The notes under the pieces are model-generated. The model saw only the letters and a program-made list of their open reading frames with translations, had not been told where the DNA came from and searched no databases. The position numbers and the translations under genes were made by a program. From Verrucomicrobia bacterium TMED44 (lineage in GTDB: Bacteria; Verrucomicrobiota; Verrucomicrobiia; Opitutales; Seribacteraceae): a DNA stretch of 16,339 bases. The stretch is from positions 1 to 16,339 of the forward strand of contig NHCX01000001.1 of the NCBI GenBank assembly GCA_002168015.1. Direction: 5' to 3'. Positions 2,360-15,471 of the stretch are shown piece by piece (the first letter of the stretch is position 1; each line of letters begins with the position of its first letter).

Positions 2360-4327
2360 TTACAAGCCCAATTGACGAAGAGCCTCAGGTTTTGGTTTAT
2401 TAACTGAGCTTTGATCAGCTTCGAAGAAACCATGTAATTGCCGAATTCTCGTTGGGTGGCGCATTTTACGGAGTGCCTTGGCTTCTATTTGCCGGATTCT
2501 TTCTCTTGTCACCTTGAACTGTCTACCAACTTCTTCGAGAGTCCGGCTGTACCCATCCTTAAGTCCGAATCTTAGCGAAAGCACATTTCTCTCCCTATCG
2601 GTGAGAGAATCAAGCACATCAAGAATTTTTTCTCTTAAGAGGGAATAGGCGGTCATGTCATATGGATTTTCAGCCCCTTTGTCTTCAATAAAATCACCAA
2701 AATTCGTGTCATCACTGTCACCAACGGGACTTTGAAGCGAAATTGGTTGCTGAGCCATTTTCATAATGCTCTGGACTTTATCGAGGGGTAAGCCCATCTC
2801 CTTAGCAACTTCATCGGGTGTGGGTTCGTGTCCAAGTTCCTGCAATAATTGTTTTTGTACTTGCATGACCTTGTTGAGGGTCTCGATCATGTGAACAGGG
2901 ATACGGATTGTGCGAGCCTGATCAGCGATTGATCTGGTAATCGCTTGTCTTATCCACCAGGTAGCATAGGTGGAGAATTTGTAACCGCGACGATACTCGA
3001 ATTTTTCGACTGCCTTCATCAAACCCATATTTCCTTCCTGAATCAGATCAAGAAAAGAAAGTCCACGGTTGGTGTATTTTTTTGCTATGGAAATTACCAA
3101 GCGAAGATTAGCTTCTACCATTTCGGTTTTCGCCTTATGGGCAAGGCGCATGTTCAGCCGTAGTTCCTTAATCAGTGCAACAAGTTCTTCCGGTTCCATG
3201 CGGAACTTGGAACGGGCTTCTTGTAAATCGTTCTTAACCTGTTCAAGTTTTACGCCCTTCCTTTTTATTTTAGCTAAATCTTTTTTTGACAGTTCGAGGT
3301 TGTGCAGATTGCGGGCGATTGCTTTTAACTCGGGATTCACCCGGTGGAGAAAATCCTCAAAGACTTTGAGTTTTAAGCAACATTTTTTAAAAATCGTAGC
3401 AAGCTCGTTCTCATGATTTTTAAAGCGGGTTAAGGATCTTTTTTGTTGCGTGGAATTGGCAGCTTTCTCGAAGCTAATCCATGCTTTTTTGATCTTTGTA
3501 TCCAATTCTTCAAGAGCAATAACCTGTTTACTTAGAGATCTAAAATATGCTTCACGGCTGTCTATTTTCTTATCTAATACGACCCGATCGAATCTTTCCT
3601 CTCTTTCCAAAAGCTTTTTACAGATTTCAAGTTGAAAATCATTAGTCAACGATACTGAATAAATGATCTTTAGTGCAGCTGTTTCTGCACTTTCTATTCT
3701 TTTGGAAATATCAACTTCTTCTTCACGAGAAAGGAGAGGAACCTTACCCATTTGTTTAAGATACATGCGGACTGGGTCATCGAGCATATCGCTTTGATTA
3801 GAGCGTGCTGTTTCTTCTTCTGACTCTTCTTTTTTCTTTTTAAACTTCTCCACATCTTTTGAGTCGAGAAGTTTGATTTCCAAATTATTGAAGATGGAGA
3901 TCACATTTTGGAGTTCTTCAGGTTGATCTGCAATTTTGGGCAATGCTTTATCCACATCGCGATAAGTCAGGAATCCTTGTTCGCGAGAAAGGTGAATCAG
4001 TTCTCGAACTTTCTCGGTAACTTCATCATCCAAGGCATGAGGCTCAGCACCTTTCGATACTTTACTGGCAGCAATTTTTGATGAGGAAACTTTGGAGGTA
4101 GGAGTATTCTCCTTGGCAACTTTCCTTTTTCTGCCAGGGGTGGCTTTTGCTGCGGGGGTCGCAGTTTTTGCCTTTGTTCTCTTGACTGGTGACGCCTGGG
4201 TCTTAGTTCCCTTGGATGCAGCATTTTTTTTGGTCACAGATTTTTGTTTGGTCGTGACAATCTTGGCCGATGTAGCTTTGGTTTTAGCAGATTTTGTCGC
4301 GGTTTTTTTGGTTTTAGTAGTAGGCAT
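2360..4327 (-). CDS. rpoD: Primary sigma-70 factor RpoD with Lys-rich N-terminal extension
   Basis: Housekeeping sigma subunit that directs RNA polymerase to -35/-10 promoters. Order of parts: a Lys/Ala/Thr/Ser-rich head (1-92), region 1.1 (about 99-155, [20 protein letters not shown]), region 1.2 (182-214, [22 protein letters not shown]), a charged non-conserved spacer (about 215-400), region 2 (about 403-472, with [28 protein letters not shown] and [15 protein letters not shown]), region 3 (about 480-555) and region 4 (566-632) with the helix-turn-helix [21 protein letters not shown]. All group 1 features are present, so this is the essential sigma and not an alternative one. The ATG lies one base after the dnaG stop (TAAGATG), implying translational coupling. 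The head carries 24 Lys and 3 Arg but one acidic residue in 92 positions, like histone H1 tails. Length 655. Confidence 0.97.
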
Positions 4328-4328
4328 C

Positions 4329-6194
4329 TTAAAGTTTGGGATCTAGCTCAGTTTCAAATATTTTAGGTGGATTTTTTCGACAGCTCCGGATTTCTTTTAA
4401 TTGGGCACGTAGTTCAGTAGTAGAGCTAGGGTTATGGTTGAGTTCTTGTAAACTGGAAAGAAGGGTCTTTTCGGATTTACGAGAATTCTTGGCAAATAAT
4501 GCAGCAATGCAATGGTTTGCCGTGTCCATGATTGTGGTATCACTCTCTTCTTCAGGCTCTTGAAAAAGGAGATTTTGAAAAACAAACCTTTCACTGTCCG
4601 CTTCGAGTAGTTCCTCCATCTCGGATGATTCCAATGGACCATCTGCAAGAATCTCAGCAAGAATTTTGGCAAGTATGCGACCAGCAGTGACCTTAGTGTC
4701 AAGCCACGAAGGGTCAATGATTTGTGAAAGGGAACTTCCAAGGCGAACATCGTGCAAAAGGCAATAAAGTAAATCATCTTCTGCGGTTGTCAATCGTTCT
4801 GTTGTCTTATTCTCAACCTTTTGAGTGGGGTTGTGGGTGGTTTTTTGTTGATAGGCAGGCTTTCGATTTCTGTTAAATTTTTGAAAGTCTGCTTTTAGTG
4901 CTTGGGCGGGTACTATGAGGGAATCAGCTAGTTCATTGAGATAGGAGTCTCGAATAACGAGTGATTCCATCTCCGCAAAGGTGGGAAAAAAGAAATCTGT
5001 GACTTTTATCTTTTCCTGAGGGCTTGGTTTTTTACTCAAAATTTTTCCGCAAACATAACTTACCATGGGCTCACCCTCCTCGATAATTTTTTCAAGGGCT
5101 TCCTTTCCTTGGTTAACCACTATTTGATCTGGATCAGCACCTTCGGGGAGAGTTGCAAAGCGTGCATCTAATCCCGTTTTCAAAAAAATGGGTACATAGG
5201 ATAAGGCTGCTTTTTGCCCTGCCTGATCTCCATCAAGCAAACATACCACGCGGCGAGGGTTAGATTTTCTCATTAACTCTGCCTGCGATTCTTTAAAAGC
5301 CGTACCTTGTGGTGCTACGGTAGTCTTGAATCCTTCGGTGTAGCATCGGATAGAGTCGAGTTGACCTTCTACTAAAAGGAAATCTTTACTTTCATTAATT
5401 TCTTTGTTTGCTAAGTCGAGGTTAAATAAAATCTGACCTTTATGAAAAATGGGGGTTTCAGGTGAATTTACATATTTGGGGGCTTTTTTCTCCCCCCATT
5501 CCGGCGTAACGGATAGCTTTCTTCCTGTGAAACCGCAAATTCGGCCGAGTTTTTCACGAATCGGAATCATTAGCCTGCCGCAAAAAATAGAAACCCAGTC
5601 TGATTGATTTTTTTTGTCATAGAATAGACCCGATTTAGCCATCAATTTATCCACTATTCCTTTGGAAGTGAGGTGGCGACCCAATGCAAAACGGTCTGTG
5701 GGTGCATAGCCTACACCAAAACTATCTGCCACTTCATGGTTAAATTTTCTTTCTTGCAGCCAGTATTTGCGTGCCACTTCACTTTCAGTTCCCTCTGCTT
5801 TCATTTGCTCGCTAAACCAGGCCTTTGCGATTTCCTGAAGGGAAAATAATTCTTTTCGCATCGACTGACCTAAAGGTTCTGATGTGGACGAGCCTTCTTG
5901 AAAGCGCAGGGGAATGCTAAATTCACGAGATAGATATTCGATGGCTTCGTAGAAATCGAGATTCTCCATTTTCTGAACAAAAGTGATTCCGTCTCCTTTT
6001 TCACCGGAACTAAAACAGTTAAAAAAACCTTTTAGAGGATGGACATAGAAGGAAGGCGTCTTTTCTTTATTAAAAGGGCTGAGACCCACCCAGCTGGAAC
6101 CACTTTTTTTTAACTGAACATAGCGACTGACTAAATCATGTAAATCAATTCGATCTTTTAGTTCGGTTACGAAGCCTTCTGCAAGTCTTGGCAT
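4329..6194 (-). CDS. dnaG: DNA primase DnaG with degenerate zinc-binding domain
   Basis: Primase that makes RNA primers at the replication fork and binds the DnaB helicase through its C-terminus. The N-terminal CHC2-type domain (about 35-90) aligns without gaps to the canonical one, but three of the four zinc ligands are replaced: Ser39 (GLSPF), Asn42 (FNKEK) and Ser63 (CFSSG); only Cys60 remains. The catalytic domain is intact: [19 protein letters not shown] (208-225), [14 protein letters not shown] (240-253), and the TOPRIM acids Glu276 and Asp280 (VEGQLD), Asp321 and Asp323 (LLDGDQAG), Asp354 and Asp356 (EGADPDQ). The poorly conserved C-terminus (about 450-621) fits a helicase-binding domain. 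Length 621 is slightly above E. coli (581). The ATG at 6194 starts 15 nt after the TPR gene's stop, and the stop is one base before rpoD. Confidence 0.96.
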
Positions 6195-10135: not shown

Positions 10136-11575
10136 TTAGATTTTGCTAGTGAGAGAGGGAAATGATTTGGACAAGTCTAATTTGTCTCCCATCTGTTTTT
10201 GAAGTTTCAGAAGTCGTGGGAATAATTTGGACGCGATTACTTTTCCTCTCTTAGTTCCAGCTAAATCTTTTTTCTCGAATGGATCACGAAAGATATCATA
10301 CACACGAACGATTGGCACATTTGGATAGACCAATAGTTTTTCGTTGCCAACGGTGACGGATCTTTGGGCATCTAGATAAGCTCCGTATATTTCTTTATAT
10401 GGTGATCTGTTTACAGTGCCTTTAGCCAAAGGCATTATATCTTGAAACTGAACATGTTTTGGCTTTACAACCTTTGCAAGAGCTAGCGTGGTGGGCATAA
10501 TATCCTGTAGATAAATAGGGGCTGTTATTTCCTTTTTTTTCGGGATGCCAGGGCCGCAAACGATAAACGGAACACGGGTGCTGTGCTCGTACAAATTTTG
10601 TTTTCCCAAAAGACCATGATGCCCCACTCCCAAACCATGATCAGCGGAAAAGAAAATGTAGGTATTTTTTTCCATACCTGACTTTTGGAGTCCAGATATT
10701 ATTTTTCCGATTTGTTCATCCATATGAGTAATGATCGCGTAGTACTCCTGCCTGTTTACTTTTATGGAATGCGTAGTCCTTGGCATAGGGGCGAGTTTTT
10801 CATCGCGCAGATTATGCGGGCACTTAATTTCTTCCTTATATGGGTATTCCGGAAGAAAGCTAGTGGGTACCTGGATTCGATCTAAGGGGTATCGGTCAAT
10901 GTATGACTTGGGTGCTTGCCTTGGGTCATGCGGTGCATTGAAGGCAATATATGCAAAAAAAGGGTTTTCATCCTGGTGCTTTTTTGCTTCGTCAAAAAAG
11001 TACAGGGCATCATCGGCTACCACTTCGCTCCAATGTTTTCCGCCTTTCCAAAAACCTCCGAATTTTGGATCGTATGGACTCCAGGGGTCGGGCTTATCAC
11101 TAATGGGTCGGTTGTATCCCTCAGGGGTTTGGTTGGGCATGCCCCCCCGAAGATTACGAACAACATCAAAGCACTTTTCAGCCTTAGCTCGTACATGCCA
11201 TTTTCCTGTCATGTAAGTCTTGTATCCTGCTTTCTTCATATACTCTGACCACCATCGGCCGGAAATTCTTTCTTCTTCAGCTTGGTTTGATGCTTCCTGA
11301 GCCTGCCAGATAAAACGGCCTGTATTCAGCATATGACGACTTGCTACACATACCGCTCCACTCCATGAACCCATATTATAGGCTCGGGTGAAACTAGTCC
11401 CCGAATTCATCAGATGGTCGAGGTGAGGGGTGTCGATATCAGTTAGTCCTAATTCTCGAATGGTTTCATAGCATTGATCGTCTGCAAAAATAAAAAGAAT
11501 ATTCGGCTTGGATGCTTGGCTGAAGAAAGAAAAGATGAAGAGTAAAAAGGAACATTGCAGTAAGCTTGTTTTCAT
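10136..11575 (-). CDS. Exported type I (formylglycine) sulfatase
   Basis: Hydrolyses a sulfate ester, probably on a polysaccharide outside the cytoplasm; the substrate cannot be read from the sequence. Signal peptide at about 1-20 (SLLQCSFLLFIFSFFSQAS), then the sulfatase opening KPNILFIFADDQ with metal ligands Asp32 and Asp33. The modification site is Cys76-Val-Ala-Ser-Arg80 followed by HMLNTGR, i.e. C-x-A-x-R instead of the usual C-x-P-x-R. Other active-site residues are in place: Lys125 and His127 (TGKWH), His216 (APHD), Asp312 and His313 (SADHG) and Lys325 (GKQNLYEHSTRVPF). Length 479 is normal for the family. It requires a maturation enzyme (FGE or anSME) for formylglycine, not found in the window. 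It is 86 nt downstream of the unknown acidic gene on the same strand. Confidence 0.93.
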   Translation of the reverse strand: MKTSLLQCSFLLFIFSFFSQASKPNILFIFADDQCYETIRELGLTDIDTPHLDHLMNSGTSFTRAYNMGSWSGAVCVASRHMLNTGRFIWQAQEASNQAEEERISGRWWSEYMKKAGYKTYMTGKWHVRAKAEKCFDVVRNLRGGMPNQTPEGYNRPISDKPDPWSPYDPKFGGFWKGGKHWSEVVADDALYFFDEAKKHQDENPFFAYIAFNAPHDPRQAPKSYIDRYPLDRIQVPTSFLPEYPYKEEIKCPHNLRDEKLAPMPRTTHSIKVNRQEYYAIITHMDEQIGKIISGLQKSGMEKNTYIFFSADHGLGVGHHGLLGKQNLYEHSTRVPFIVCGPGIPKKKEITAPIYLQDIMPTTLALAKVVKPKHVQFQDIMPLAKGTVNRSPYKEIYGAYLDAQRSVTVGNEKLLVYPNVPIVRVYDIFRDPFEKKDLAGTKRGKVIASKLFPRLLKLQKQMGDKLDLSKSFPSLTSKI

Positions 11576-11661
11576 GAGCTTAAGTTTTTAATTTTCAGGA
11601 TGTGAATGAAAGTTGGAATGGGTGACTCTCAGAGAAAAAGAAGAGTGAAAGAAACAAAAAC

Positions 11662-12330
11662 TTACCTGCGGCAGTCATTCATCACCCTAAGCCAAATTTC
11701 TCGAAGATCGTGCATTCGCATGTTTGTTTCTTTAAAATAAGATGCCAATTTTTTTCTGCTGTGATGAAGAAATAAATGATTGATCCTCATCGATTCGTTC
11801 AAGGCTGAATGAGCTTTCTTAAAGTGACAAACGGCAAGCAGGAAATCTCCAAGATCAAGGCAGTTTGCAGCCATAATACAATGTTTTTCAGCGTCAGATA
11901 AGCTCACGCTGTATCCCCATACCAAATCAGGACTAGTGGGGTGATTATTCTTTCTCATTAACTGCTCCCAAGAAGCTCGTAGATAAGAAAAAAGAGCATT
12001 GGAGGTTATGTAAATTGGATGCCTGTGGATGGTGTACGGATCCATACTATTAATTTCCTCCGGATCTAAGGGCTTAAGTACAGGCAGATCGTTTTCATCG
12101 AATTCAAGTTCGTCTGTGGATGACCAGTCATCTCGATGCCAACCCATCAGACTGGCTGCAGCATCGAGTCGATCGTCTTGTTCTTTCACTTGGTTGTATG
12201 CAGTCATGAACCGTACAACTTCCTTATCAGAATTTCTTAGAAATACTTGCCAGTCAGATTCATTCCAAGCAAGATCACCAGCATCATCCCAATCACCCTC
12301 ATTACTTCCTTCAAATTCGTACTGACTCAT
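11662..12330 (-). CDS. Hypothetical acidic protein with an internal D-W repeat
   Basis: 222 residues, not recognised. It has no signal peptide or membrane helix, so it is probably cytoplasmic. The first 90 residues are acidic and Trp-rich and contain an internal duplication: DWDDAGDLAWNESDWQVF (13-30) and DWSSTDELEFDENDLPVL (68-85) share D-W-x5-L-x3-E-x-D-x2-V. The rest (about 95-222) looks all-helical with His/Cys/Leu-rich segments (SDAEKHCIMAANCLDLGDFLLAVCHF) that could form a small helical-repeat or four-helix bundle. The ATG at 12330 is the first Met of a well-behaved frame; no Shine-Dalgarno precedes it. It is divergent from acylphosphatase across 115 nt and lies upstream of the sulfatase. 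The function is unknown. Confidence 0.75.
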   Translation of the reverse strand: MSQYEFEGSNEGDWDDAGDLAWNESDWQVFLRNSDKEVVRFMTAYNQVKEQDDRLDAAASLMGWHRDDWSSTDELEFDENDLPVLKPLDPEEINSMDPYTIHRHPIYITSNALFSYLRASWEQLMRKNNHPTSPDLVWGYSVSLSDAEKHCIMAANCLDLGDFLLAVCHFKKAHSALNESMRINHLFLHHSRKKLASYFKETNMRMHDLREIWLRVMNDCRR

Positions 12331-12365
12331 ATACTTTCATTCAAATTGGACAAGATTTCAACGCC

Positions 12366-12395
12366 TTGCAAATGTTTTTATCTTTAGTTTATAAA
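12366..12395 (+). promoter_or_regulatory. Candidate sigma-70 promoter for acylphosphatase
   Basis: TTGCAA at 12366-12371 and TATAAA at 12390-12395 are separated by 18 bases, in the 115-nt gap between divergent genes. The -10 matches 5 of 6 consensus bases and the -35 matches 4 of 6. The predicted transcript would begin near 12402, about 44 nt before the GTG start. It is found by eye only in an A/T-rich region, so a chance match is possible. Confidence 0.35.
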
Positions 12396-12445
12396 AGCTT
12401 GGTATTCGAGTGTGCTTGGCCCATCCATAACTCATCTTATTTTCA

Positions 12446-12712
12446 GTGAGAAGAAAAATAGTTTACAAGGGGAGGGTGCAGGGTGTGGGTTTTCGATGGA
12501 ATGCAAAAGATTCAGTATCAGGATTGCATATTACTGGATATGTAAAAAATCTAAGCGATGGATCTGTGGAATTACTCCTGGAAGGTGAACTAAGAAATAT
12601 TATTGAAGCACAGGCCGCAGTAGACCGGAGGATGCGTGGTTATTGGATAAGTCGTAATCATGAGGATCTTGGTGGGGAAGCTCATTGGGACAAGTTTTCA
12701 ATTCACTCTTGA
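12446..12712 (+). CDS. acyP: Acylphosphatase
   Basis: Small cytoplasmic enzyme that hydrolyses carboxyl-phosphate bonds of acyl phosphates. The 88 residues match the family's usual length of about 90. The signature KGRVQGVGFRW (8-18) holds the phosphate-binding loop and catalytic Arg17, and GYVKNLSDGSVELLLEG (31-47) contains the catalytic Asn35. The start is GTG at 12446: an in-frame stop lies at 12428-12430, and no ATG exists between. No Shine-Dalgarno is visible, but a candidate promoter lies about 50-80 nt upstream. The last 10 bases overlap the 3' end of the convergent toroid-protein gene. Confidence 0.94.
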   Translation: MRRKIVYKGRVQGVGFRWNAKDSVSGLHITGYVKNLSDGSVELLLEGELRNIIEAQAAVDRRMRGYWISRNHEDLGGEAHWDKFSIHS

Positions 12713-13905
12713 GGAAGACAGCGCTTCAGGCTTAGTAAAGCCATAGCTGTTCCATATTGTTGATGGTAATCATAAAAAGGAAAGTCCCACCAGGATCCAT
12801 CTTTTTCCTGTAATGGAGCCAAAATGTTACCCAATTGTTTTTGATACTTCGGTTGATCTTCAAGAGGAAGAGTATCGATACAAAAGGCCGCGTAAAGGTG
12901 ACCGTAGTAAAAGAAATAACCTGCCACCGCGAACCAAGACTCGTGAGGAATAGGTCGCTTACGGGCTACATCTAGCCAACCGTTTCTTTTGATCAAGCGG
13001 TCAAGGCATAACTTATGAATTTCATCGGTAACGGATTCATCCCCCCAAATTTGCAGGGCATAATTACAGGCATGGGATCGGCCGAGGCTGCCAGCGGGAC
13101 GGTTGATTCCACTGCGAGGCCTGTATTTTAGATATTCTCCATATAAATAACTATGGTCAGGCAATCGTTGACGTTGGATAGCATCAAGAGCTCGTTTAAC
13201 CAATTTTTCCGAAACTGCGACCCCCGCAATTTTTGCTTCTTTAAGGCCGACAAGAGCAGTCGCATTAACAAAAGAAATGGAAGAACCGGATGGCTGTTTG
13301 GTTTGGGCATTGAAATCGTAATAACCCCAGCCACCGTCCACGGACTCGTAAGTTTCCAACATCCTAACCTGTTGTGCCATAACCTCTAGAATTTTGTTTT
13401 TTTGCCGCATATTTTCAGCAGAGTTAAGCATACGACTTAGCGCTTGCAGCCCATACGAATGGGACCAAACATTGTAAAGAGCCATAGGACTTGCCCTTCG
13501 TAGTTGCGGAAGTTTTTCGATCAGATAACTTTCTCCCAATTCTATACACTTAGAATACTTTTTATCATCAGCTTTGATTTCAAGGAGGGCAGAGATGGAC
13601 AGTGCGGTAACAGCCAGACGAAATGCCCGGTGTGAACCAGGAACAGGGGCAAAAATATTTAATCCTTTGGTTTGTCTTGCAGATCCCCAGGACCCATCCT
13701 TGTTTTGTTTATTGAGCAGGAACTCACATCCCTTTTCTAATCTATCTTTGATTTCACTAGGTGAGAAATCAATCTTAGCGGGGGAATCAGACTGATTTGA
13801 GTCAACTTCAGCTGATGTAGAAAATACCCAAAGAAATAATCCCTGTACGAGAATAAATGGACCCAACAAAATATTGTTGGTAAAGGGATGCTTGGAATGG
13901 CTCAA
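12703..13905 (-). CDS. Exported prenyltransferase/squalene-cyclase-type alpha/alpha-toroid protein
   Basis: 400 residues. An N-terminal hydrophobic stretch (LLGPFILVQGLFLWVFSTSA, about 13-32) looks like a signal peptide. The mature part has repeats of the squalene-cyclase/prenyltransferase toroid: CEFLLNKQNKDGSWG, the DGGWGYYDF stretch, a weaker NGWLDV stretch and LAPLQEKDGSWWDFP, with helix pairs such as AFRLAVTALSISALLEI between them. The DxDD acid motif needed for squalene-hopene cyclisation is not present, so it is probably not a hopanoid cyclase. Similar exported toroid proteins are common in Planctomycetes and Verrucomicrobia without known function. The start is TTG at 13905, overlapping the upstream stop as TTGA; there is no other in-frame Met nearby, and coupling explains the weak start. 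It overlaps acyP by 10 nt at the 3' end. Confidence 0.8.
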   Translation of the reverse strand: MSHSKHPFTNNILLGPFILVQGLFLWVFSTSAEVDSNQSDSPAKIDFSPSEIKDRLEKGCEFLLNKQNKDGSWGSARQTKGLNIFAPVPGSHRAFRLAVTALSISALLEIKADDKKYSKCIELGESYLIEKLPQLRRASPMALYNVWSHSYGLQALSRMLNSAENMRQKNKILEVMAQQVRMLETYESVDGGWGYYDFNAQTKQPSGSSISFVNATALVGLKEAKIAGVAVSEKLVKRALDAIQRQRLPDHSYLYGEYLKYRPRSGINRPAGSLGRSHACNYALQIWGDESVTDEIHKLCLDRLIKRNGWLDVARKRPIPHESWFAVAGYFFYYGHLYAAFCIDTLPLEDQPKYQKQLGNILAPLQEKDGSWWDFPFYDYHQQYGTAMALLSLKRCLPQE

Positions 13906-15380
13906 CTGTTAGGCTTCTTTTTGAGCACTTTCATCCCCATGCGAACCCCCGAGAGGATTTCTATGGAATCACCAGACTTCTTCCCTTCTTCAATTCTTTT
14001 CTTTTGGACTTTCCCTTTTTTGTTGAGAATGTATACAAATTTGGATTCAGGGTTATTTTCTTCGGATTTGATTACATCAGCGGGTAGGGTGATAGCATCA
14101 GCCCGATGATAAGTTACGCATTCTAATGTGCAGGCTGAGCCGGGATTCGGCAAAATAAAGCCTTTGGGTAACATGATTTCTGCAGTCAGGTCAAAAATAC
14201 CTGGCTGGACCTGAATTTTACTTATTTTTTTGATCGAGCTGGGTATTTTCGACTCGTCTGCGGAGACAAGCGAAAGTTTCGCTTCGTTTCCAACCTTGAT
14301 TAGATGAAGATGTTTTTCAGGAAGATCTAGACGTGCACGAATTTGTCTGCCAGGGGAAATGGTCATGAAATCTTCATGCGGTTTGAGAATGCCACCTTTG
14401 CGGAGTTTGGACTTAAATCCGCTTGCTCCACTCCATTTTCCTCGATCAAAGGTTCCCCAAAATAGAACTCCATTGAATGGACTTTTAATGGGTTGAATAA
14501 TTTTTAAATCCTTTTCAAACTTTTCTTTATTAATGGCCAACTGTTTTCTTTCCTCTACCATTTTTTTACCTTCGAGTTTTTTTCTATTCAATTCAGCTGG
14601 TTTGATCTTCCTTATTGTTTTAATCGATAATTTCTCACGATTAAAGTTTGCATCGGTTGCAGTTTTTCCACGAGGCAATTGGATATCGAGAGTTTCTTCA
14701 TGCCTGATCTTAGCAGCTTCAAAAGAAAATTTTGCTCGTTCATATTGATGCTGAGCTCGTTGAAGAATGATTTCCTCTGTTTCTTCTGTGAGGTCGTCAG
14801 CCTCGTACATTTTTTTCAATTGGTTTAACTCCTCAGCCGCATTGGCAAGATATTGCTCAGATGATTTTAAACTCATGGTTGCCGATTTCTTGTCGAACGG
14901 AAGATATACCTTGTTGAAGCGATTATAGTCTTCTTTTACATAATTTTCGAAACGGTCAATTTCTGCTTTCTCGAGTGGAGCGAGTTCCTCGGCCAGTTTG
15001 ATTTCCGCAAGCAGAATTTCTTTATTTAGGTCTAAAATATTTAGATCATGGCTGAGGACTTGAATATGATTACGAATTTTTTCAGTATCTATCTCAAGAA
15101 GTATTTCTCCTTTTGAAACAGTCTTTCCATGAATAGGTGGTGTACTTACCCTTAAATCGGACCAGTTTTGCGTATCAATTGATAGCACAGTTGCATCAGG
15201 GTCTTCTATGAATCCCTTTAGTACGATTGCATTACGGATAGTTTTCTTTTTTGGAAGTATCACTTCTGGATCTTTATCTTTCGCTTTTTCGCTAGTAGAG
15301 TTGGATTCAGTTCCATAACTGACTAAAGAGGAAGCGAGTAAGCAAAGGAATAGAGAAATTATTTGTAGATTGTAGAGCAT
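13902..15380 (-). CDS. HlyD/RND-type periplasmic adaptor (membrane fusion) protein
   Basis: From the ATG at 15380 the protein has 492 residues (the frame extends to a TTG at 15416, but the ATG sits directly before the signal segment). N-terminal hydrophobic helix YNLQIISLFLCLLASSLVS, then a split biotinyl-lipoyl-like domain: the first half at about 75-105 (VSTPPIHGKTVSKGEILLEIDTE) and the second at about 295-345 (KIIQPIKSPFNGVLFW, then RKGGILKPHEDFMTI). Between them lies a long charged coiled-coil hairpin (about 105-295). A beta-barrel part follows (RARLDLPEKHLHLIKVGNEA, about 348-367), then a membrane-proximal part ending SIEILSGVRMGMKVL. Such adaptors bridge inner-membrane pumps to the outer membrane, but no ABC, RND or MFS pump or TolC-like gene is present. 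It is coupled to the toroid gene by a TTGA overlap. Confidence 0.8.
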   Translation of the reverse strand: MLYNLQIISLFLCLLASSLVSYGTESNSTSEKAKDKDPEVILPKKKTIRNAIVLKGFIEDPDATVLSIDTQNWSDLRVSTPPIHGKTVSKGEILLEIDTEKIRNHIQVLSHDLNILDLNKEILLAEIKLAEELAPLEKAEIDRFENYVKEDYNRFNKVYLPFDKKSATMSLKSSEQYLANAAEELNQLKKMYEADDLTEETEEIILQRAQHQYERAKFSFEAAKIRHEETLDIQLPRGKTATDANFNREKLSIKTIRKIKPAELNRKKLEGKKMVEERKQLAINKEKFEKDLKIIQPIKSPFNGVLFWGTFDRGKWSGASGFKSKLRKGGILKPHEDFMTISPGRQIRARLDLPEKHLHLIKVGNEAKLSLVSADESKIPSSIKKISKIQVQPGIFDLTAEIMLPKGFILPNPGSACTLECVTYHRADAITLPADVIKSEENNPESKFVYILNKKGKVQKKRIEEGKKSGDSIEILSGVRMGMKVLKKKPNS

Positions 15381-15471
15381 GTAAACAGTATCAAATTTTC
15401 CAATGTTCGGAAGCAAGTTAAAAGGATTATTTTAATCGTTGAAGATGAGCGAATATCAGCATTAAATCCAT

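Follow-up and report, generated by a model that had tools for sequence, protein, structure and literature searches.

A DnaG primase with three of its four zinc ligands replaced, and evidence for a recurrent all-or-none change at the site

The dnaG locus and its zinc-ligand sites

We analyzed a 16,339-nucleotide stretch of Verrucomicrobia bacterium TMED44 (NHCX01000001.1, referred to hereafter as the window), which forms contig 127 in a genome assembly of 2.35 Mb and carries on its minus strand the gene for the DNA primase DnaG (4329..6194, 621 residues). The product scores 378.2 bits against the NCBIfam dnaG profile TIGR01391 (cut-off 283.6), matches PF01807, PF08275 and Toprim families, and has the catalytic acids of its TOPRIM region (residues 273–358, 5121..5378, minus strand; Pfam Toprim_2 at 274–358), with E276, D321 and D323 identical in 15 of 15 aligned sequences; profile score and acids are those expected of a bacterial replicative primase. 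Directly downstream on the same strand lies rpoD, encoding the primary sigma factor (2360..4327; TIGR02393 and NF004208 above cut-off). An earlier reading, made from the letters alone (the sequence-only reading), had described both the intact TOPRIM acids and this gene pairing, and both descriptions stand.

The N-terminal domain (residues 1–100, 5895..6194, minus strand) passes the Pfam Zn_ribbon_DnaG profile with 99.6 bits (cut-off 24.9), and its zinc site is gone. Ligand numbers 40, 43, 61 and 64 are those of E. coli (the spacing verified by alignment to the structures 1d0q and 2au3). The codons, recovered from the plus-strand letters of this minus-strand gene, give Ser39 (AGC, 6078..6080) in place of Cys40, Asn42 (AAT, 6069..6071) in place of His43 and Ser63 (TCC, 6006..6008) in place of Cys64, leaving Cys60 (TGT, 6015..6017) as the single retained ligand. 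The sequence-only reading had reported this loss of three of four ligands within normally spaced, conserved surroundings, and was right on each count. Relative to the CHC2 zinc sites of 1d0q (B. stearothermophilus) and 2au3 (A. aeolicus), Gly63 is also replaced (Ser62, AGT, 6009..6011). The residue at position 51 is tyrosine (Tyr50, TAT, 6045..6047). Profile score and ribbon fold are those of a CHC2 zinc finger (PF01807), with Ser-Asn-Cys-Ser instead of Cys-His-Cys-Cys as the ligand set; strictly speaking, the domain is not a CHC2 zinc finger.

The ligand-less state is shared by near kin: among the best 120 of 621 homologue clusters for the N-terminal domain, all 120 have a ligand-less pattern (41 SSCS, 40 SQCS, 38 SNCS and 1 SACS). 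Within the window's genus, nonsynonymous divergence (dN) is lowest in the N-terminal domain of the three domains in 8 of 8 pairs (for example 0.03, as against 0.10 and 0.18 for the other two, synonymous sites being mostly saturated). Sequencing error and pseudogene formation were ruled out on these two grounds; the gene had earlier been judged unlikely to be a pseudogene, and with the loss fixed in sampled kin and the domain under purifying selection this judgment is upheld. Relative to the polymerase domain, ligand-less domains appear to evolve no faster than zinc ones (median N-terminal/polymerase-domain divergence ratio 0.59 versus 0.83, from pairs that are not independent).

A second, canonical dnaG, which the sequence-only reading had named as an objection to itself, was not found by profile search of the source genome (82.5% complete, one DnaG only), and three genomes of the same genus (G008, G015 and G026, 95–96% complete) gave one DnaG match each. 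Two kinds of candidate in the source genome (G000) were rejected as second copies: a CHC2 protein on contig C66, by eye a phage-like primase-helicase with a weak Pfam match, and matches on C47 and C93, whose frames are interrupted by stops. The C66 protein (L002, ~5277–5399) has its CHC2 ligands intact and may belong to a prophage or to a viral contig that was wrongly binned with this genome. Genome G016 holds a second DnaG-like match with internal stops (C26, 769–2597) beside an intact copy on C2, which may be a decayed copy, a strain mixture or contamination. Elsewhere in the window, a sulfatase-like gene was recognized by eye at 10136–15416, and weak profile matches to squalene cyclase and RND adaptor families fall at 12703–13905 and 13902–15416.

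Distribution and history of the ligand states

The N-terminal domain was read by pattern in 280 distinct DnaGs, the sequences also being inspected (the pattern may miss odd forms; L154, L181, L187 and L230 gave no readable DnaG N-terminus, and row L298, missed by the pattern, was set to SSCT by eye). Four ligands are present in 150, one in 112 and none in 18; no protein has two or three, and inspection likewise revealed no intermediate. All 130 ligand-less DnaGs are without ligands 1, 2 and 4: every one has Ser or Thr at both position 40 and position 64, the residues found at position 43 are N, S, T, Q, K, G and A, and the third ligand is Cys in 112 and Asp in 18. The proteins with Asp, in which all four ligands are gone, belong to Bradyrhizobium, Bosea and families f20 and f7 (among them L038, L141, L143, L146, L147, L161, L162, L165, L175, L188, L270–L272 and L294).

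Each of the 59 coded families in the class is uniform in its state. All sampled families of the window's order (inferred from relatives to be Opitutales) are ligand-less except f13 (27 of 28), and so are 8 of 31 families in other orders of the class; elsewhere in the phylum, all 38 DnaGs read have the zinc ligands. A sample of named Proteobacteria, biased in that it comprises the best 80 loci of one scan, yielded 15 ligand-less and 5 zinc forms from Alphaproteobacteria, and named strains of Bradyrhizobium, Methylobacterium and Ancylobacter are among the ligand-less (Bacteroidetes and Planctomycetes lay outside the sample). The loss that the sequence-only reading ascribed to a single lineage is real and fixed in sampled kin, but the scope it gave was too narrow, for the same state recurs in other orders and in Alphaproteobacteria. 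As a separate observation, two long TOPRIM-type proteins that occur beside a normal DnaG (L350, G103:C37; L352, G037:C94) have a ligand-less SPFT...CMSSG, and L354, similar in kind, retains CHC2.

A polymerase-domain tree of 111 rows implies at least 11 state changes, five of them forced by well-supported branches, and a phylum tree of 42 rows needs eight, again with five forced. Because these forced counts include a placement of f13 that the RpoB tree contradicts, we claim about four or more state changes, not eleven, with their direction tested in the window's order only. On the phylum tree of 42 rows, placing the 11 ligand-less rows of other orders in a single clade costs 71 log units and is rejected (approximately unbiased test, p-AU 0.00086). 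This bears on the possibility that a single source passed ligand-less DnaG, or its N-terminal domain, to the other lineages by horizontal transfer: identical residues do occur in Alphaproteobacteria and Verrucomicrobiota, and zinc-free ribosomal S4 genes spread by transfer (PMC3087516). Such a spread nonetheless seems highly improbable given that rejection, the grouping of ligand-less polymerase domains with their own class, and N-terminal domains that, outside the switch sites, resemble by eye those of zinc-bearing kin.

Family f13 groups with L131 and L135 and is equated here with Opitutaceae; two ligand-less rows lying outside the f13 clade, L128 and L129, come from records that also bear the title Opitutaceae. 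In the DnaG polymerase-domain tree f13 is nested among ligand-less families (94/86 with L128 and L129), a clade constraint on the ligand-less rows gives p-AU 0.037, and a two-rate model outperforms a loss-only model (twice the log-likelihood difference, 33). These DnaG trees would imply regain of the zinc site in f13 from a ligand-less ancestor, a reading that the RpoB tree speaks against. The longer RpoB alignment (29 rows, 1284 columns, independent of DnaG and with only two outgroup rows) conflicts with DnaG over f13: all 23 ligand-less rows of the order form one clade (99/95; 100% of 200 bootstrap trees), to which f13 is sister. The DnaG result fits an outgroup joining the long branch of the window's family, and we prefer to regard the DnaG placement of f13 as an artefact of that rooting. 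Regain is accordingly improbable, and a single loss after f13 branched off is the most likely history of the order. Relatives with four ligands, which the sequence-only reading would have taken as a mark of error or decay, exist in the same order, but the sister position of f13 on the RpoB tree points to evolution instead of error.

Linked residues and readings of the ligand-less site

Further residues change with the ligands. In 143 non-redundant rows (91 zinc, 52 ligand-less), Gly occupies position 63 in 90 of the 91 zinc forms, and Ser in 51 of the 52 ligand-less ones; at position 51, 42 of the 52 ligand-less forms have Phe or Tyr, and zinc forms mostly His, Asn or Thr (8 of the 91 have Tyr, and a further 8 have none of the six listed residues). 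An aromatic residue at position 51 is not exclusive to ligand-less forms, because A. aeolicus has Tyr there together with zinc. When ligand-less clades are set against zinc relatives in ten contrasts (some taxa being shared between contrasts), Cys40 is replaced by Ser or Thr, His43 is lost, Cys64 is replaced by Ser or Thr and Gly63 is lost in 10 of 10, with position 63 Ser or Thr throughout in nine; in four, every ligand-less member and no zinc member is aromatic at position 51, the reverse occurring in none. An independent-pairs test of the linked sites had five supported pairs, too few to reach 0.05.

We think it likely that the window encodes a replicative DnaG in a zinc-free (“C-minus”) form, in which ribbon and primosome role are kept, which arose by a repeated all-or-none switch and for which zinc sparing is the likeliest driver. 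The C-minus designation implies ligands lost jointly from a domain still under selection; none of the 280 proteins is intermediate, and within the window's genus the N-terminal domain is the one with the lowest dN. In structural terms the knuckles CPFH and CFGC would have become SPFN and CFSS, with Ser or Thr and another residue replacing the zinc cross-link, probably via hydrogen bonds and packing, the joint loss of ligands 1, 2 and 4 being accompanied by Ser in place of Gly63 and, often, by an aromatic residue at position 51. The sequence-only reading had supposed that the domain folds without zinc; its fold is predicted to be kept, matching 1d0q and 2au3 in an AlphaFold model, with the reservation that AlphaFold can draw a metal site with no metal present. 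We infer that the bound metal is absent and that priming is retained. The zinc ribbons of the T4 and T7 primases touch template bases and primer (PMC10359460); the ligand-less ribbon would still contact both.

Were the N-terminal domain instead decayed and out of priming, the polymerase domain and helicase sufficing, DnaG would parallel metazoan Twinkle, in which other primase motifs and activity were lost as well (PMC3610141). The window's protein differs in keeping its TOPRIM acids and in being the only DnaG found in its genome; replacements are stereotyped, dN within the window's genus is lowest in the very domain that should be decaying, and P41, F42, E45, S49, F50 and G68 are invariant in 52 of 52 ligand-less rows, all of which makes decay hardly likely. 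A different, harder metal might alternatively be bound through Ser/Thr, Asn/Gln/Ser, Asp or Cys, a proposal to which the Asp at position 61 in 18 of 130 proteins and the unvarying Ser or Thr at positions 40 and 64 lend something. Position 43, however, may be Gly or Ala, which offer no side-chain ligand, or Lys, an unlikely one; we know of no harder-metal site built from such residues, and consider this proposal very improbable.

A broader extension of the zinc-free reading is tentative: DnaG may fall into two separate classes, one with zinc and one without, that lack stable intermediates and between which lineages cross repeatedly by one recurring set of some five changes, the template-reading face being remodeled (aromatic residue 51 near the old knuckle) and Okazaki start sites differing. 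That priming sites may be chosen differently had also been suggested in the sequence-only reading. A possible parallel between position 51 and the base-stacking residues of T4 gp61 (PMC10359460) is only a lead here. In the C. difficile primase, one residue beside the zinc site shifts start-site preference (PMC5204125).

Zinc in other proteins and the probable place of this DnaG among zinc-free forms

Ribosomal proteins L31 and L32 are without zinc cysteines in 8 of 8 genomes of the order, including two f13 genomes whose DnaG has zinc, and possess them in both outgroup genomes (f29 and f40); in the window's order the DnaG switch would have come in a lineage whose L31 and L32 were already zinc-free. 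The L31/L32 loci without zinc cysteines include L361, L374 and L381 (G000) and their kin, and in L357 and L361 the gene next to L31 is an L36 whose own frame contains only one Cys. The S14 zinc motif was absent in all ten genomes read. L32 was sought in 40 genomes and matched in 39 (unread are G132, with no match, and G203, f68): it is zinc-free in 9 of 12 families with ligand-less DnaG versus 2 of 15 zinc-DnaG families read (Fisher p 0.002; 0.03 with ligand-less kin collapsed to six lineages and zinc families left uncollapsed). The two exceptions among zinc-DnaG families, f13 and f50, are both next of kin to ligand-less clades, as though ribosomal zinc had been lost before DnaG zinc. Nearly all zinc-binding ribosomal proteins are zinc-free in Verrucomicrobiae, Alphaproteobacteria and Bacteroidetes (Chen and colleagues, PMC3087516, Table 2); ligand-less DnaG was seen in the first two of these, the third lying outside our sample.

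Several observations, added to the DnaG topology and the AlphaFold reservation above, weigh against the zinc-free reading or its motive. The RpoC zinc motif is present at 27 of 30 RpoB loci (of the remaining three, two gave nothing and L333 only an unrelated match to the pattern), the zinc finger of LigA is intact in 5 of 5 window-family genomes searched and in two f13 genomes, and the ClpX zinc site is intact in 8 of 9 genomes, G000 giving no match. Families f30, f32 and f35 combine ligand-less DnaG with zinc-type L32. Gammaproteobacteria have mostly zinc-free ribosomal proteins (PMC3087516, Table 2), yet 15 of 15 in the biased sample of named Proteobacteria have a zinc DnaG. Neither the contrasts nor the Fisher tests are wholly independent, and in the open-licence literature we found no metal or priming measurement on any ligand-less DnaG. 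A general abandonment of zinc is not supported, RpoC, LigA and ClpX sites being kept in most genomes checked; the loss appears selective, and because these sites are mostly kept, zinc sparing would be at best a partial explanation. Separately, a profile search of G037 and G045 (97–99% complete) did not find the zinc-binding domain of LigA, which may exist there in a zinc-free form.

DnaG and type IA topoisomerase are both TOPRIM enzymes. The latter has Topo_C_Rpt repeats without cysteines (PMC9369019), likewise the zinc-free counterpart of a zinc domain, but these are accessory C-terminal repeats, whereas the DnaG domain reads the primase template. Like the C-minus forms of S4, L31 and L32 (PMC3087516), DnaG is a core informational protein with zinc and, probably, zinc-free versions; unlike those ribosomal proteins, whose zinc-free forms involve gene transfer or zinc-regulated second copies, it is a replication enzyme in which the residues appear to have been substituted in situ, and repeatedly.

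In a review, the DnaG zinc ligands are called highly conserved and the precise role of the zinc motif unresolved (PMC6163395), and a research paper calls the ribbon essential for function (PMC5204125). We recognized no prior description of a DnaG without zinc ligands in the open-licence literature; an earlier mention elsewhere is possible. Zinc that was thought important for DnaG is apparently replaceable, because the same all-at-once change arose more than once in other bacteria. Natural ligand-less DnaGs offer a direct test of what the zinc is for, be it fold, redox sensing or template reading, and a repeated, all-or-none change of this kind would give a clear-cut example of convergence within an essential enzyme.
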